The position numbers and the translations under genes are program-made. Positions 21,941 to 29,900 of a DNA stretch of 64,000 nucleotides are shown piece after piece. Under the pieces are notes generated by a model, which saw only the letters and a program-made list of their open reading frames with translations, was not told the origin of the DNA and did not search any database. How positions within the stretch are numbered: position 1 is the stretch's first letter; each line of letters begins with the position of its first letter. This stretch comes from Methanosarcina barkeri 3 (GTDB taxonomy: Archaea > Halobacteriota > Methanosarcinia > Methanosarcinales > Methanosarcinaceae), in contig NZ_CP009517.1 of NCBI RefSeq assembly GCF_000970305.1, positions 2,232,001 through 2,296,000 of the forward strand. The letters run 5' to 3'.

Positions 21941-22190
21941 AGCTTCAATGGCAAAACTCATAAAATGTATTTATAGTCAGATTCACATATAACTAGGAAT
22001 GTATAATATTTTGATAATTATTTTGGAACTCTGAAGGTAAACATTGTTCATCACCAAGTTGTAGGAACGGTTTGAATTTTTAAAATATACTCTAAAGTTT
22101 TAAAAATCAGCCCTTAAATCTTAAATAATAGATATTGCAAAAAAGAGTACAAGAAAAGTGTTATAATCAGGACTATTAAAAGTTATTAGG

Positions 22191-22262
22191 TGGACCGGTC
22201 GGGAATTGAACCCGAGGCCTCTACCATGCCAAGGTAGCGATCTTCCCCTGATCTACCGGCCC
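22191..22262 (-). tRNA. tRNA-Ala(GGC)
   Basis: The minus strand folds into a full cloverleaf of 72 bases. The acceptor stem GGGCCGG pairs with CCGGTCC and contains the G3-U70 pair that identifies alanine tRNA. The anticodon stem is CTACC/GGTAG with loop TTGGCAT, anticodon GGC. T-loop TTCAATT. Discriminator A73 at 22191. CCA is not encoded (CCT follows). No intron. Confidence 0.96.
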
Positions 22263-22485: not shown

Positions 22486-22562
22486 GGGCCCGTAGCTTAG
22501 CCTGGTGGAGCGCACGGCTGATAACCGTGAGGTCCTGCGTTCGAATCGCAGCGGGCCCACCA
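22486..22562 (+). tRNA. tRNA-Ile(GAT), copy 1, CCA encoded
   Basis: Acceptor stem GGGCCCG with CGGGCCC, anticodon stem CACGG/CCGTG, loop CTGATAA giving anticodon GAT, T-loop TTCGAAT. The body ends at 22559 and the genome encodes the terminal CCA (22560-22562). Identical in its 74-base body to the copy at 22625. Confidence 0.96.
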
Positions 22563-22624
22563 CAACTTGATAATCCTTTTTCAGGAGAATTTTCAGGTTT
22601 TACAACCTTACTTATCCTTCAATC

Positions 22625-22698
22625 GGGCCCGTAGCTTAGCCTGGTGGAGCGCACGGCTGATAACCGTGAGGTCCTGCGTTCGAATCGCAGCGGGCCCA
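22625..22698 (+). tRNA. tRNA-Ile(GAT), copy 2, no CCA encoded
   Basis: Base-for-base the same tRNA body as the copy 139 bases upstream, but followed by CTA and not CCA, so the 3' end must be added by the CCA enzyme. The sequence between the copies is unrelated to the tRNA, so this is a recent or gene-converted duplication. Confidence 0.96.
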
Positions 22699-22730
22699 CT
22701 ACATATATTATTAATGCTGTTAATCATTTG

Positions 22731-22968
22731 TGATGTTATTTTTAGTGATGTTATTTTTAATGATGTTATTTTTAATGATGTTATTTTTAATGATGTTATT
22801 TTTAATGATGTTATTTTTAATGATGTTATTTTTAATGATGTTATTTTTAATGACTTTGCTTTTAATTACTTTACTTTTAGTGATGTTATCTTTTAGTGAT
22901 GTTATCTTTTAGTGATATTATCTTTTAGCGATGTTATCTTTTAGCGATGTTATCTTTTAGTGATATCA
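22731..22968. repeat. 15-bp tandem array that changes to a 16-bp unit
   Basis: Eight copies of TGATGTTATTTTTAA/G (15 bp) run from 22731 to 22850, two diverged 15-mers follow, and from 22881 the unit becomes TGATGTTATCTTTTAG (16 bp, about five copies). The remaining 22969-23230 is AT-rich spacer with no gene seen. Confidence 0.93.
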
Positions 22969-23230: not shown

Positions 23231-23644
23231 TCAAGCAATATGTTTCAGGCGCTCAATATTTCCAAGCACGACTCTACTCTCGGCTACAATATCTTCTTCG
23301 ATCTTGCTAACAATATAGTCCATTGGGACTATTAGCCTGTATAACTTTATCGGTCTGCCTTTACCCTTTGACCTCTTTTCTTCTCGGATATCAATCCAGT
23401 TATTTTCGCGGAGATAACGCATTGCAACACTGACTTCAGGTTGTCTCAAGCCTGATACCATTTCAATGCTCTGGGACGAGATCTCCCTTCCTTTCGCAAG
23501 GCATGCAAGCGTAAGAGCAATTGGTCTACTAACATTAATTTTTCTAAATAGTTCTATCATTTCATGTTCGATCGGTCCCATAACTACAGGGATCTATTCT
23601 ATTGTATCAGAAATATCCATAACTGGACCACTTTCATCTACCAT
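23231..23644 (-). CDS. Winged-helix transcriptional regulator with in-frame amber codon
   Basis: The wHTH domain (SSQSIEMVSGLRQPEVSVAM recognition region, then RYLRENNWIDIREEKRSKGK wing) and a C-terminal helix are closely similar to the paralogue at 24918-25319. From ATG 23581 the product is 116 residues, but no ribosome binding site precedes it. The same frame continues upstream through a single TAG (23594-23596) to ATG 23644, which is preceded by GGGTGAT, an excellent methanogen Shine-Dalgarno site. Read through, the protein has 137 positions and an acidic N-terminal extension like the one in the paralogue. Either TAG is decoded (pyrrolysine is used in this genus), or the amber is a nonsense change and translation restarts at 23581. 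Confidence 0.75.
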
Positions 23645-24815
23645 TTAATCACCCAAAGAACCATTATAGAGTTGATTAATATAAATATTTACTTATGTAT
23701 TCTTTTTAATATTTGTTAATTAATAAAAGTTCACTGGGTGTGTTTATCGTTCACTCACTCTAAAAGTGTCCATGAGATACTGCTTTTTCATTTCCGGCGC
23801 GAGTTATAAAATTTTTCCTTATATTCTTAAAACTTTAAAATTAGCTAAAACCCTTAAAATCTACTAAAAACCTGAAAAAATGCTGAAAACTTAAAAATTT
23901 CTAAAAATATAAGAGTTTAATATTCTTTCTTCTCAAACAGGGTTCTTTTTAGATTATGATAGAGTTTTAAGTTCTGACTTTCATTTTATGACGACAATGT
24001 CCGAATTTTCTGTAAATTCAAAATCAAATTTTTCTATATTAATCATAATTCAATTCTTTTAATACTGGATTCTTAAGCTACAAACTCACTAGTTTCAAAT
24101 TTTACAGGGAAGTTGGCATACTGCCTTTATGACTCGAACTTTATCTTAACTTTGACTTTTTTAAAACTAAATTTTTGCTTCAAACTTAACTTTCTTGAAA
24201 GTCCAGTTTTGTAAATACATAAAAGTGTAAAAAGAATTTGCAGGACATTTTTATACTAAAAATTGCTAAAGCTTACTGGAAGCCCTCTTTACCTCTATTG
24301 GGATGTTTCCTCCTCGTACCCTTTATATACTCTATTCTCTAGAAATTGTACAGTTTAATTTAGAAAATCGATAACCTGGACCTCTAACTTTATAAATTAC
24401 AAGTTTAACTGGAGATTTTATTTTGCTTAATATTATATTTTCGGCGTAAGGTCCTAATCTCATAACTAAAAATTACTGCTCTTTTGTCGCTTTCGAAATT
24501 AAGATTCAAGTAGAAAAAGAAATATCAAAAGGATCTAGAAGAGGCATTGTAAAAATAGAGACTAGAGGATATAAACTGAAAACAGATGACAAGAACCAAG
24601 AATGGGTGATAAAAATAAAAAAGAGATAACAAAAATCAAAAACAGGTGGCAATAATCGAAATACAGACACTAAAAATCAATAAAAACAAGAATTGAAAAG
24701 AACTATCCAGTTATAAAAGAAAGATAATTTTCCTCAAGCATCATATCTTTAAACATATATTTAACAGATAAGAAGTCGAATCCGGGTTATAAAACCCAGA
24801 CTTTAAAATTAATAA
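23645..24815. other. Long AT-rich spacer between the two regulators
   Basis: About 1.2 kb with no open frame of protein-like composition on either strand. It contains short oligo-A and oligo-T runs and loosely repeated AAAAATCAAAAA-type words near 24590-24690. It may hold a regulatory region or non-coding RNA, but nothing specific can be supported. Confidence 0.4.
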
Positions 24816-24875
24816 TTAAGTTTTCTGAGATTAAGTTTTCTGAGATTAAGTTTTCTGAGATTAAGTTTTCTGAGA
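24816..24875. repeat. 15-bp tandem repeat, four exact copies
   Basis: TTAAGTTTTCTGAGA starts at 24816, 24831, 24846 and 24861 without variation, just downstream of the second regulator gene (ends 24918 on the minus strand). Confidence 0.95.
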
Positions 24876-24917: not shown

Positions 24918-25319
24918 TTAGGAAAGGTTCTTGAGACGTTCTATGTTCTGGAGTACGGCCTTACTTTCAGCCATTAAGTCTTCTTCTATTGAATTGATAA
25001 TTGTTTCCATCCGAACCGTCAGTTTATACAATTTAACTGGTCTTCCTTTACCCTGATTCTTTTTTTCTTCCCGCATATCTACCCAGTCATTTTCACGGAG
25101 ATAGCGCATTGCAATGCTAACTTCCGGCTGTCTCAAGCCTGATACCATTTCGATGCGTTGGGAAGAAATTTCCTCTCCTTTAGAGAGACACGCAAGGGTA
25201 AGAGCAACTGGCCTGTTAATATTAAGCCTTCTCAAAAGCTCCACCATCTCGTATTCAATCTCTCCCATCTTAAATTCGTAGTCCTCTGATATAAACTCAT
25301 TATCTGCCACAACTATCAT
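24918..25319 (-). CDS. Winged-helix transcriptional regulator, paralogue of the 23.2 kb gene
   Basis: 133 residues: an acidic N-terminal extension (DNEFISEDYEF), helices MGEIEYEMVELLRRLNINRP and VALTLACLSKGEEISSQ, a recognition region RIEMVSGLRQPEVSIAMRYL, a basic wing (REEKKNQGKGRPVKLYKL) and a C-terminal helix (SIEEDLMAESKAVLQNIERL). It belongs to the MarR/ArsR-like wHTH group of archaeal regulators. It is about two-thirds identical to the other copy by eye. The start at ATG 25319 is preceded by only a weak site (GGTAG). It is about 0.55 kb upstream of, and divergent from, hdrA1, so it might control that operon; this is an inference from position. Confidence 0.85.
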   Translation of the reverse strand: MIVVADNEFISEDYEFKMGEIEYEMVELLRRLNINRPVALTLACLSKGEEISSQRIEMVSGLRQPEVSIAMRYLRENDWVDMREEKKNQGKGRPVKLYKLTVRMETIINSIEEDLMAESKAVLQNIERLKNLS

Positions 25320-25874
25320 CTACCGATTATACCGAAAGAACAGCATATAATTGCTTTCGATATTAATTTCTCCGTCCAGTATTTCAGATCAATAGAAACA
25401 TATTATTTTACAGTTGTTATATTTCCAGTGTCTTTTATTGCCTTTATTAAATATATTTCTACTTATATGAGTTTCTGATCTGTGGGAGTATCTCACAAAA
25501 TCTGTTTTTCTCTGTTGATTTAAATAATAATACTTTCTTCATATATATAATTATGCGCCTATAAAAACTTCTCGACAATTTTACATATTATTTTTTTCAG
25601 GAAGCAAATATTGAATATCTAGACTGAAAGACAATTTATATCCTGGAGTTTTGCAAGCCTTCCTGTATATATAGGATAAGCCCATATTGATTATAGTTTC
25701 ATTTCTTAGGAAATTTAATTATAGCACTAACAGAGTAAACGAAAATTTAAAAATTCACCTTTTTTCTAAAATTGTCCTTTTTTTGTAAGTATTGCAAATG
25801 CTTTATCCGAATTGGGTTAATAATTTAGGTGTTCTGGCAAGTCTTAAATACGAATCCTTGAAAGATTTAACATA
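25320..25874. other. Divergent promoter region between regulator and hdrA1
   Basis: 555 AT-rich bases, no gene seen. TATA-like stretches such as TTCTTCATATATATAAT (around 25533-25551) are present. hdrA1 has no strong Shine-Dalgarno site immediately before ATG 25875. Confidence 0.4.
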
Positions 25875-28292
25875 ATGAACGCTGCCCTGGACAAACCCGC
25901 TGTATTTATCTGCCATTGCAGTGGGAACATTTCCGAACGTATTGATATTAATTCACTTAAGAAAACCCTTAAGGCAGAAGGGATCCCGGTCTTCGATTAC
26001 GAGTATCTCTGTTCAAGAGAGGGACAGACCCTTATCAAAAATAAGATTTTGGAAGGGAACCTAGACCGGATAGTAATAGGTTCGTGCACACCCTCAAAAC
26101 ACGGCACTCTCTTTAAAAAGTGTATTCAGGAAGCAGGCTTGAATCGGGCAATGCTTGAAATCGCAAACCTCAGGGAACACTGTGCATGGGTGCATCCGGA
26201 CAAAGCCGGAGCGACTGAGAAAGCACTCTCACTTATTCGGGGAAAACTCAACCGCCTGGAAAATCATAAGCCTCTTGAGGAGATAAAAGTAAATATCGTT
26301 CCACAGGCCCTCGTTATTGGTGGAGGAATTGCAGGGATAACTGCGGCGGTTAATCTTGCAGATAACGGAATTTCCACCTACCTTGTAGAGAAAGAATCCA
26401 GTATAGGTGGAAATATGGCAAAAATAGGCAAGGTTTTTTCTCCTGACAAGCTTGCGGAAGAGTGCGCGATGTGCTCGCTAAGTCCGCTAATGAATGAGGT
26501 AGTAGCTAACCCAAAAATAACCCTTTTAACCTGGACTGAGGTGGAACGCTTAAGCGGAAGTGCCGGCAACTTCACAGTCAGGCTAAGGAAAAAACCGAGA
26601 TACGTACATGACAACTGTACAGGCTGTGGCCGATGTAGCCGCGTCTGTCCTGTCCTGGTTGAAAACGAGTTTAACTGTGGGTACATAGACAAAAAGGCAA
26701 TTTCCCTGCGTTTTTCCCAATCCGTTCCGAAGATCTACTGCATAGACCCTGACCACTGTCTGCAGTTCAAGGGTGAGATATGTGGAAAATGTGTAGAAGC
26801 CTGTAAATCCGGAGCGATTGACTTCTCACAGAAGGAGGAGATTATTGAGCTTAATGTCGGTGCAGTTATTGTTGCCACAGGGTTTGAGGAGTATGACGTA
26901 TCCCAAAAACCTCAGTACGGTTATGGAGTTTTCAAAAATGTTATAACCCAGATGGAACTTGCCAGAATGCTCGGAATTAATGGCCCTTCAAAAGGAGCAT
27001 TGGTCAAGCCTTCGGACTTCAACCTGGACCCTGATGCTGTAAGCTCAACAAGTACCTGCAGTACTGAAAGATCCTCAGAAAGTTCTTCAGAAAATTATTC
27101 AGAGAAAGGATCGGGAACTCCTAAAAGGATAATTATGATTCAGTGTGTGGGTTCAAGGGATGAAAAAGAAGGCGGAAATCGCTATTGTTCCAGGTACTGC
27201 TGCATGGCAGCCTTAAAGCACTCGAACCTTATAATGAAAAAATACCCGGGTACTGAAATCACGATTTGTTATGTCGATTTGCGGGCGCTTGGCTTTTACG
27301 AGAACTACTATCGGGCAGTCCAGGATATGGGAGTTAGATTTGTAAGAGGAAGACCTGCTGAAATCGTCGAGAAGCCGGATAAAAGCCTTCTTGTCAGACT
27401 AGAAGATACACTTAACCAGAAAATAACAGAACTGCCTGCTGATCTCGTCATACTCTCTGCAGCCATGGTCCCTTCAAAGGGAACCCGAAAAATTGCCAGT
27501 ATACTGAATATTAGCCAGGATGAAAGCGGCTTTATTAAAGAAAGACATTCAAAACTGAGGCCCGTAGACAGCTCACTGGATGGGATCTTTGTCTGCGGCA
27601 CTGCCCAGAGCCCTAAGGATGTTACGGATACCATTTCCCAGGCAGGACTTGCATCTATAAGAGGAAGTGCCTTTATTGCTGACAGCCCAAAAGCCCTGGT
27701 AAACGAAATTCCGACTATCAATCAGCTTTTTTGTAATCAATGTAATGAATGCCTCAAGTGTCCGTTCGAGGCTTTTTCCCTAAATGATAGTGGAAAGGTC
27801 ATCGTAGACCCGCTTGTATGTACTGGGTGCGGATACTGTACTGAACTCTGTCAGAAAGGAGCTATTCAGATTTCAGGCTTTACAAAAAGCCAGCTAAAAG
27901 CCGAAGTTGAAGGAGTAGTCAAAGAAGGAGACCTGCTGGGTTTTGTAAACAGCGGTATCGCGTCCATAACCTGCGATAATATAGGAAATAGTGCACTGAC
28001 TTATCCTTCAAATGTCAAGCTAGTCAAAGTGCCCACAAACCTCGTCGTTGATAAAGACCTGTTACTTCACGCCTTCAAACGTGGAGCATCGGCTGTCCTA
28101 TTTATAGAGGATCCTCCTGACAGCCCGAAAGCCGAGGTAATATATCCTTTAACTATCAGCCATTTTGAAAAGTTGAAAAAAGAACTTGGAGATTCAGGAG
28201 ACAGACTTTATTTCAAAAAAGCTTATGTTCCAAACACAAGAGGGCTTGCAGGCACTTTTACCAGTCTTGCCCGGGAAGGAGAGATGATATAA
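25875..28292 (+). CDS. hdrA1: Heterodisulfide reductase subunit A, HdrA1 type
   Basis: 805 residues. FAD subunit of the cytoplasmic CoM-S-S-CoB reductase. N-terminal HdrA domain (1-135), FAD-binding GGGIAGITAAVNLA (149-162) and KESSIGGNMAKIGK, a two-cluster ferredoxin module (C248, C251, C254, C258 and C303, C306, C310), and a second ferredoxin module near the end (C620, C623, C626, C629 with unusually tight CxxCxxCxxCP spacing; C649, C652, C655, C659). Odd features: a Ser/Glu-rich insert (about 389-414), and a C-terminal tail (about 688-780) that resembles MvhD/FlpD but lacks nearly all of its cysteines. First gene of hdrA1-hdrC1-hdrB1; the stop shares a base with the next start (ATAATGATT). 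Established work in M. acetivorans links this set to growth on methylated compounds. Confidence 0.95.
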   Translation: MNAALDKPAVFICHCSGNISERIDINSLKKTLKAEGIPVFDYEYLCSREGQTLIKNKILEGNLDRIVIGSCTPSKHGTLFKKCIQEAGLNRAMLEIANLREHCAWVHPDKAGATEKALSLIRGKLNRLENHKPLEEIKVNIVPQALVIGGGIAGITAAVNLADNGISTYLVEKESSIGGNMAKIGKVFSPDKLAEECAMCSLSPLMNEVVANPKITLLTWTEVERLSGSAGNFTVRLRKKPRYVHDNCTGCGRCSRVCPVLVENEFNCGYIDKKAISLRFSQSVPKIYCIDPDHCLQFKGEICGKCVEACKSGAIDFSQKEEIIELNVGAVIVATGFEEYDVSQKPQYGYGVFKNVITQMELARMLGINGPSKGALVKPSDFNLDPDAVSSTSTCSTERSSESSSENYSEKGSGTPKRIIMIQCVGSRDEKEGGNRYCSRYCCMAALKHSNLIMKKYPGTEITICYVDLRALGFYENYYRAVQDMGVRFVRGRPAEIVEKPDKSLLVRLEDTLNQKITELPADLVILSAAMVPSKGTRKIASILNISQDESGFIKERHSKLRPVDSSLDGIFVCGTAQSPKDVTDTISQAGLASIRGSAFIADSPKALVNEIPTINQLFCNQCNECLKCPFEAFSLNDSGKVIVDPLVCTGCGYCTELCQKGAIQISGFTKSQLKAEVEGVVKEGDLLGFVNSGIASITCDNIGNSALTYPSNVKLVKVPTNLVVDKDLLLHAFKRGASAVLFIEDPPDSPKAEVIYPLTISHFEKLKKELGDSGDRLYFKKAYVPNTRGLAGTFTSLAREGEMI

Positions 28293-29002
28293 TGATTCCA
28301 TATGTAAATGAATATGATACCCCGGAATGTAAAACCCTTGCAGAAACTGCAAAGAAAAGCATCCGGACACCTGCCTCTCTGGGGCTTGACCGCTGCATCC
28401 AGTGTGGAGCCTGCACGGCTTCCTGCCCTGCAGCCCGCTTTACAGATTACAGCCCGCGCCAGATTGTGAAAAAAGTACTGGAAAATGACCGCAGTGTGCT
28501 TGAGTCCGAAATGATCTGGTCCTGTTTCTACTGTTATTCCTGCAATCTGCGTTGTCCCAGGAATAATAGCCCTGTAACAATTGTGCAGGTTCTCAGGCAG
28601 ATGGCCGTCAACGAGGGCATAGGAGTTGAAAAGCTTGCCTATTTCCTTGAAATAGGAGAGTACCTTGCAGAGAACGGAGCCAGCAAGGTACCGGGTGCAG
28701 GAGTTAAGAATATGGAAAGAGACCTTGGAGAACGCTGGATAGGTTTTAAGAAGAACCTTGAGTCAATTCGTAATGAACTGGGGCTCAGTTCAAAGGATAT
28801 CAGGAACACACATGGGGAAGTTCAGGCTATTCTTGAAGCCACAGGCTATTTTAACAGAGAAAAATGGCTCAAAGCAAAAATACAGGAAAAACTTTTGCAT
28901 CAGCTCCTGGAGAACCAGTGCATCAAGAGAGAAAATAGAAGCGGAGATTTCGGCTTTGAAAGCGATAGAAGATATTCCGGACAGCCAGCTTTTATTATTT
29001 AA
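28292..29002 (+). CDS. hdrC1: Heterodisulfide reductase subunit C, HdrC1 type
   Basis: 236 residues. Two 4Fe-4S clusters: CIQCGACTASCP (C35, C38, C41, C45) and CFYCYSCNLRCP (C78, C81, C84, C88). It relays electrons from HdrA to the catalytic HdrB. The core HdrC fold ends near residue 180; the extra C-terminal residues run 47 bases into the hdrB1 gene in another frame, and the last 15 are probably just the cost of that overlap. It starts at the base where hdrA1 ends. Confidence 0.95.
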   Translation: MIPYVNEYDTPECKTLAETAKKSIRTPASLGLDRCIQCGACTASCPAARFTDYSPRQIVKKVLENDRSVLESEMIWSCFYCYSCNLRCPRNNSPVTIVQVLRQMAVNEGIGVEKLAYFLEIGEYLAENGASKVPGAGVKNMERDLGERWIGFKKNLESIRNELGLSSKDIRNTHGEVQAILEATGYFNREKWLKAKIQEKLLHQLLENQCIKRENRSGDFGFESDRRYSGQPAFII

Positions 29003-29900
29003 GAGCTGCATGGTCGGGCAGGAGTACCCAGGAGTGGAAACCTCCACTTGTTATGTCTTTGACAGGCTTGGGATAGACTATTGTATAAACGATGAGCAGT
29101 CCTGCTGCACAGGAATAGGCCATTATACCGACGTCTTTGAAGGACTGACAACAGCAGCTATTGCAGCCCGGAACTTCGCAGTCGCAAAAAGGTGCGGTTA
29201 CCCCAACATAACCTGCCTCTGTTCAACCTGTTATGCCGTAAATAAAGAAGCCTGTGAAACCCTGAACACCAATACCGAAGTTCGGGAAAAAATTAACTCT
29301 ATCTTCCAGGAAAAGGGCCTTGAAAATCTTTTTTACAAGAAAGACGATATGAATCCGAGGAAAAACTTCTACCATGCAGTAGAGATTCTTTTAAGTAAGG
29401 TCGATAAAATCCAGGAGCAGAAAGAATTCGACTTTTCAGGAATCAAAACCGCATCTCATCATGCCTGCCATTACTATAAAGTTAAGTATCTCGATGTCCT
29501 CGGAAACCCTGAAAACCCTCAGTTGATAGATAACATAGCCGCAGCCTGCGGAGCCGAGCCTGTACGCTGGTACGAAGATCGGACTCTCACTTGCGGGATG
29601 GGCTTTTCCCAGCTCCACCTTAACAAAGACACCTCGCTTCAGGTAACAAAGACCAAACTTGACAGCCTTCAAAGAGCAGGCGTAGAGCTTATGCTTCATA
29701 TGTGCCCGAATTGCCAGATCCAGTATGACCGCTACCAACCGGTTATCGAAAGAGAGTTTGGCGTAAAATATGATATGGTGCACATGAATATAGCCCAGTT
29801 CGTAGCTCTTTCAATGGGTGCAGATCCATACAAGGTGTGCGGCTTCCAGACTCACTCCGTGCCTCTTGAAGAGTTTCTGGAAAAGAACGGCATAATCTAA
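28956..29900 (+). CDS. hdrB1: Heterodisulfide reductase subunit B, HdrB1 type
   Basis: 314 residues from TTG 28956, chosen because GGAG lies nine bases upstream and the conserved LLLFKSCMVGQEYPG follows; the frame is open further up but overlaps hdrC1 more. HdrB holds two non-cubane 4Fe-4S clusters at the heterodisulfide site, each made by a CCG motif. First motif: C18, C50-C51 (as CCTG), C89, C92. Second motif: C171, C213, C250, C253, but the first Cys of the CC pair is Thr212 (TCGMG). That difference may change or remove one ligand of a catalytic cluster. Terminal gene of the operon. Confidence 0.93.
   Translation: MKAIEDIPDSQLLLFKSCMVGQEYPGVETSTCYVFDRLGIDYCINDEQSCCTGIGHYTDVFEGLTTAAIAARNFAVAKRCGYPNITCLCSTCYAVNKEACETLNTNTEVREKINSIFQEKGLENLFYKKDDMNPRKNFYHAVEILLSKVDKIQEQKEFDFSGIKTASHHACHYYKVKYLDVLGNPENPQLIDNIAAACGAEPVRWYEDRTLTCGMGFSQLHLNKDTSLQVTKTKLDSLQRAGVELMLHMCPNCQIQYDRYQPVIEREFGVKYDMVHMNIAQFVALSMGADPYKVCGFQTHSVPLEEFLEKNGII

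Follow-up and report, generated by a model that had tools for sequence, protein, structure and literature searches.

A regulator gene beside the soluble heterodisulfide reductase operon hdrACB of a complete Methanosarcina genome (4,560,446 bases, one contig, 99.99% complete) is interrupted near its 5' end by a single in-frame amber codon, which raises the question of whether this codon is read as pyrrolysine, passed over by a restart of translation, or the first lesion of a gene being lost. The window analysed here is the whole stretch of 64,000 nucleotides, to which positions given without a contig label refer (Table 1). Along the minus strand the gene reads GGGTGATTAA-ATG 23644, then MVDESGPVMDISDTIE, TAG 23596..23594, IPVV, ATG 23581 and finally TGA 23233..23231, confirming that the frame opened at ATG 23644 has one interruption only. 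The observation of the initial annotation that the only good Shine-Dalgarno site (GGGTGAT) lies ahead of ATG 23644 also holds, the best duplex with the 16S 3' end reaching –8.7 kcal/mol upstream of ATG 23644 versus –0.7 kcal/mol upstream of ATG 23581.

The identity of the gene rests on family and on gene order. The gene product scores 143.7 bits on the NCBIfam MreA family model (NF053756; cut-off 100), covering model positions 3–110 of 110, and the second minus-strand regulator of the locus also scores above this cut-off; a Pfam scan gave no match above cut-off. The order hdrB, hdrC, hdrA, paralogue, hdrR is that of M. barkeri, our gene being distal to the first MreA-family paralogue, and by these two lines of evidence it is the orthologue of M. 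barkeri HdrR (MSBRM_RS03855) and of M. acetivorans MreD (MA3130; PMC5112694), both MreA-family members encoded by the second such gene adjoining hdrA, hdrC and hdrB. It differs from both in having TAG at codon 17, where they have a sense codon. In M. barkeri the distal gene product, HdrR, activates hdrBCA, and its deletion is harmful during growth on H2/CO2 only, not on methanol or acetate; the proximal paralogue lacks this effect (PMC11218639). The intact paralogue in our window does have the N-terminal extension that had been attributed to it, which is short (about 17 aa).

Table 1. Features of the hdrR locus (positions in the window)
Feature	Position	Strand	Remarks
hdrR/mreD orthologue, MreA-family winged-helix regulator	23231..23644	-	137 codons read through the amber codon; from sequence, family match and gene order
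In-frame TAG	23594..23596	-	Codon 17; GAG in the two nearest relatives
Shine-Dalgarno site GGGTGAT	23648..23654	-	Ahead of ATG 23644; kept across the genus
ATG codon 22	23579..23581	-	Possible restart 12 nt past the TAG; no Shine-Dalgarno site
116-aa core	23231..23581	-	Holds the whole MreA family domain; would-be restart product
MreA-family paralogue, intact	24918..25319	-	Counterpart of M. barkeri MSBRM_RS03850 by gene order
Imperfect palindrome TTATCCGAATTGGGTTAA (TTATCC-GAATTG-GGTTAA)	25803..25820	+	In the hdrA promoter; candidate operator for MreA-type regulators
TATA-like stretch CTTAAATA	25841..25857	+	Before hdrA; conserved
hdrA	25875..28292	+	First gene of the presumed target operon
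hdrC	28292..29002	+	
Open frame holding hdrB	28758..29900	+	True start inside; named by sequence and position

Some features of the surroundings deserve mention in their own right. Relatives have comparable TCC...GG sequences at the position of the hdrA-promoter palindrome. Given the operon order hdrA, hdrC, hdrB (25875–29900), a probe placed just upstream of hdrB, as the wording of the HdrR paper has it, would lie within hdrC, and the promoter would precede hdrA rather than hdrB, provided that the M. barkeri operon is transcribed hdrA-first as well. Between the tRNA genes (two tandem tRNA-Ile (GAT) genes at 22486–22699 and a tRNA-Ala (GGC) gene on the opposite strand at 22189–22262) and hdrR a 15-base unit, TGATGTTATTTTTAA, is repeated 15.3 times in an array (22731–22964), and four perfect copies of another 15-base unit, ATTAAGTTTTCTGAG, stand just downstream of the paralogue gene (24815–24875).

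Each of the 31 Methanosarcina genomes searched has family members, and in 21 genomes besides this one the hdrR orthologue is an uninterrupted frame of 136–155 codons from stop to stop, in which the first six codons, together with the start and its Shine-Dalgarno site, are nearly identical in sequence. The initial annotation reckoned with orthologues that might lack any reading frame ahead of the equivalent of 23581; in all 21 the leader frame is open, with a sense codon at position 17 and no stop. Because the open leader, with its start and Shine-Dalgarno site, is kept in these 21 genomes, the frame starting at ATG 23644 is, judged from sequence, a genuine gene, and we reject the idea that the leader is open by chance. 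We likewise reject ATG 23581 as the ancestral start, since the leader and its Shine-Dalgarno site are conserved and the deepest orthologues do not share methionine 22, codon 22 reading ATC or ATT in L048 and L049, beyond the genus clade. In the codon alignment, position 17 is glutamate (GAG or GAA) in 18 of 20 orthologues, aspartate (GAT) in one and lysine (AAG) in one; TAG is found in this genome alone. GAG stands at this codon in isolate UBA11020 and in M. spelaei, the two nearest relatives, and the TAG therefore reflects one G-to-T change on the branch leading to this genome. Relative to these two, the same branch carries R128G (glycine at 128 is found in other species too), one or two synonymous changes and no indel, codon 21 being ambiguous as to branch change; these are too few changes to tell relaxed from purifying selection in the core.

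The amber codon fell in a part of the protein that appears to bear little constraint. Mean pairwise dN/dS among 20 orthologues (Nei-Gojobori) is 1.14 for codons 7–16 and 0.67 for codons 7–21 against 0.075 for codons 28–137, and codons 1–6 barely vary even at synonymous sites, as expected of an initiation region. An AlphaFold2 model built on a 34-sequence alignment, with the UAG entered as K, predicts a disordered tail followed by a winged-helix core, modelled confidently, that includes a long C-terminal helix: pLDDT is below 50 for residues 1–14, with block means of 42 (residues 1–10) and about 51 (residues 11–20), and exceeds 90 over most of the core. From the alignment and the model, the leader near codon 17 is thus probably close to neutral, floppy and weakly constrained. 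It is not wholly free of constraint, because proline 19 never varies among the 20 orthologues and most of them have an acidic residue at position 17.

Can this cell read the codon? The genome encodes tRNA-Pyl (anticodon CUA) and PylS, and mttB and three mtmB genes each contain one in-frame TAG. Among long frames, TAG is also the stop codon of 54 out of 1154 in one stretch and 37 out of 552 in another, together spanning 2.4 Mb (91/1706), and is an uncommon but used terminator here; most UAG events may accordingly be terminations. Archaea in which all TAG codons stand for pyrrolysine have reportedly been proposed recently, and this genome, with its TAG terminators, does not look like them. Downstream of the hdrR UAG we found no structured PYLIS-like element, the fold being no better than that of shuffled sequences (z –0.67), and no relevant Rfam match; PYLIS is not essential (PMC2933860). 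A coding-score scan of the 2.4 Mb for internal TAG versus TAA/TGA could detect only long interruptions, which were too few for a test. Its clear TAG cases were methylamine methyltransferases and, named from sequence, pcm and an IS66-like transposase, while the TAA/TGA cases mostly looked like neighbouring genes. When the whole genome was set against that of G030, little synteny was available for comparison. The transposase frame (C1:3082325, minus strand) has one in-frame TAG with its two sides open for 100 and 302 codons.

The pcm gene, for protein-L-isoaspartate methyltransferase, provides the strongest comparison within the same genome, likewise with an in-frame TAG outside methylamine metabolism. 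It lies outside the window (C1:2644567-2645190, minus strand) and its frame around C1:2644780 has TAG in the context GYS-TAG-YAPYDR. Twelve species share TAG at this site (G000, G002, G003, G004, G005, G012, G014, G018, G026, G028, G029, G030), G013 has TAT, other sense codons occur elsewhere, and the frame is intact on both sides. An intact frame downstream of a TAG common to 12 species argues that UAG is read through in pcm, whose M. barkeri homologue was listed as a predicted pyrrolysine gene in 2005 (PMC1242214). Whereas the pcm TAG is conserved at one site across species, that of hdrR is private, and pcm is by this comparison the stronger case for pyrrolysine outside methylamine metabolism.

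A model that we consider, on balance, somewhat more probable than all others taken together is that hdrR has suffered a recent, species-private, near-neutral amber mutation and still yields some full-length protein through pyrrolysine readthrough, the regulator working at a reduced level. Translation would start at ATG 23644, and at the UAG created from GAG at codon 17 part of the ribosomes would insert pyrrolysine, since tRNA-Pyl competes with release factor at any UAG, giving a 137-aa HdrR with Pyl17 in its disordered N-terminal tail. The remaining ribosomes would stop there, a fraction perhaps starting again at ATG 23581 and producing a 116-aa protein that retains the entire DNA-binding core. 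In this way the regulator would keep working, pyrrolysine itself having no role in its function. The full-length, pyrrolysine-containing regulator first suggested for this locus is plausible in view of pylT, pylS, the in-frame TAG codons of the methylamine methyltransferase genes and the pcm TAG in 12 species. In M. acetivorans an amber codon placed in uidA gave 20–30% full-length product with pyrrolysine and needed no special context (PMC2933860). The closest precedent is Thg1 of M. acetivorans, an ordinary gene that acquired an amber codon in this species alone and in whose product pyrrolysine is not essential for activity (PMC2933860); pyrrolysine was physically observed in Thg1, whereas hdrR is known here from its sequence and has restart as an alternative. 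A TetR-family regulator gene of M. acetivorans also contains an in-frame UAG; it belongs to another family, and its UAG cluster has members in two organisms, as opposed to the single genome of hdrR. It was proposed earlier that UAG drifts into tolerant sites (PMC3639795), and the hdrR amber belongs to this known kind, the tolerated amber codons of Pyl-decoding archaea.

The same arrangement can be explained with pyrrolysine in a minor role, if translation ends at the UAG and begins anew at ATG 23581, the 116-aa protein being the working regulator. This product holds the folded core and the whole MreA match (its residues 5–113 cover 3–110 of 110), and the 12 nt gap lies within the measured archaeal range: reinitiation in H. 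volcanii attains 40–60% of native at 13–14 nt, and in E. coli a 15-nt portion of upstream gene sufficed (PMC10666635). The restart that had been offered as the alternative to readthrough is plausible in this respect, but ATG 23581 lacks a Shine-Dalgarno site, which the H. volcanii construct as drawn possesses (PMC10666635), and the variability of methionine 22 outside the genus clade speaks against an ancestral start there. As a complete account we find restart rather unlikely; within the favoured model, readthrough and restart may both operate, and sequence cannot apportion them. The amber could instead be the early knock-out of a dispensable regulator, hdrACB being left under the paralogue or unregulated. 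Among the 31 genus genomes, no close hdrR orthologue was found in the near-complete G029 (one contig), G014 and G024, and in G002 (C16:341035-341381) the leader is present and the core is split by a frameshift. These absences and this frameshift suggest that hdrR is dispensable in some species, where its loss may be tolerated, and the restriction of the M. barkeri deletion phenotype to H2/CO2 growth (PMC11218639) fits such an outcome. However, there is no second lesion or indel, the Shine-Dalgarno site, the core and the candidate hdrA operator are all intact, and a lone UAG in a Pyl-decoding cell is not a full knock-out (PMC2933860); we judge a dying gene unlikely.

The initial annotation went further and imagined readthrough as a methylamine sensor, full-length HdrR being produced only with active pyl genes, so that growth on methylamines would feed into hdrACB control. 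If true, one mutation would newly have put the regulator of soluble heterodisulfide reductase under the control of the genetic code. Such a switch is logically possible, UAG decoding being dependent on pylTSBCD, and in Acetohalobium arabaticum it depends on trimethylamine (PMC8211752). We nevertheless found no support for it and consider it highly improbable: only this genome has the TAG, nearly all relatives carry E or D at codon 17, the leader seems close to neutral, and HdrR acts in H2/CO2 growth (PMC11218639), while the M. acetivorans amber reporter is read through without special context and an M. acetivorans pylT deletion grows normally on methanol and acetate (PMC2933860). The TAG is most likely a tolerated accident rather than a new sensor. 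It is also very doubtful that it is a sequencing or assembly error hiding a true GAG: this is a single substitution in one assembly with GAG in the two nearest relatives, but the genome is a single, 99.99% complete contig, and substitution errors are rare in finished genomes.

In the reading that we prefer, a tolerated amber with partial readthrough, a characterised energy-metabolism regulator has recently gained an amber codon, in a cell able to decode UAG as pyrrolysine. The gene could serve to quantify the protection against nonsense mutations that pyrrolysine decoding affords, and to establish whether readthrough or restart is the rescuer. It is also a warning to annotators, as genes with such amber codons may be wrongly called pseudogenes.
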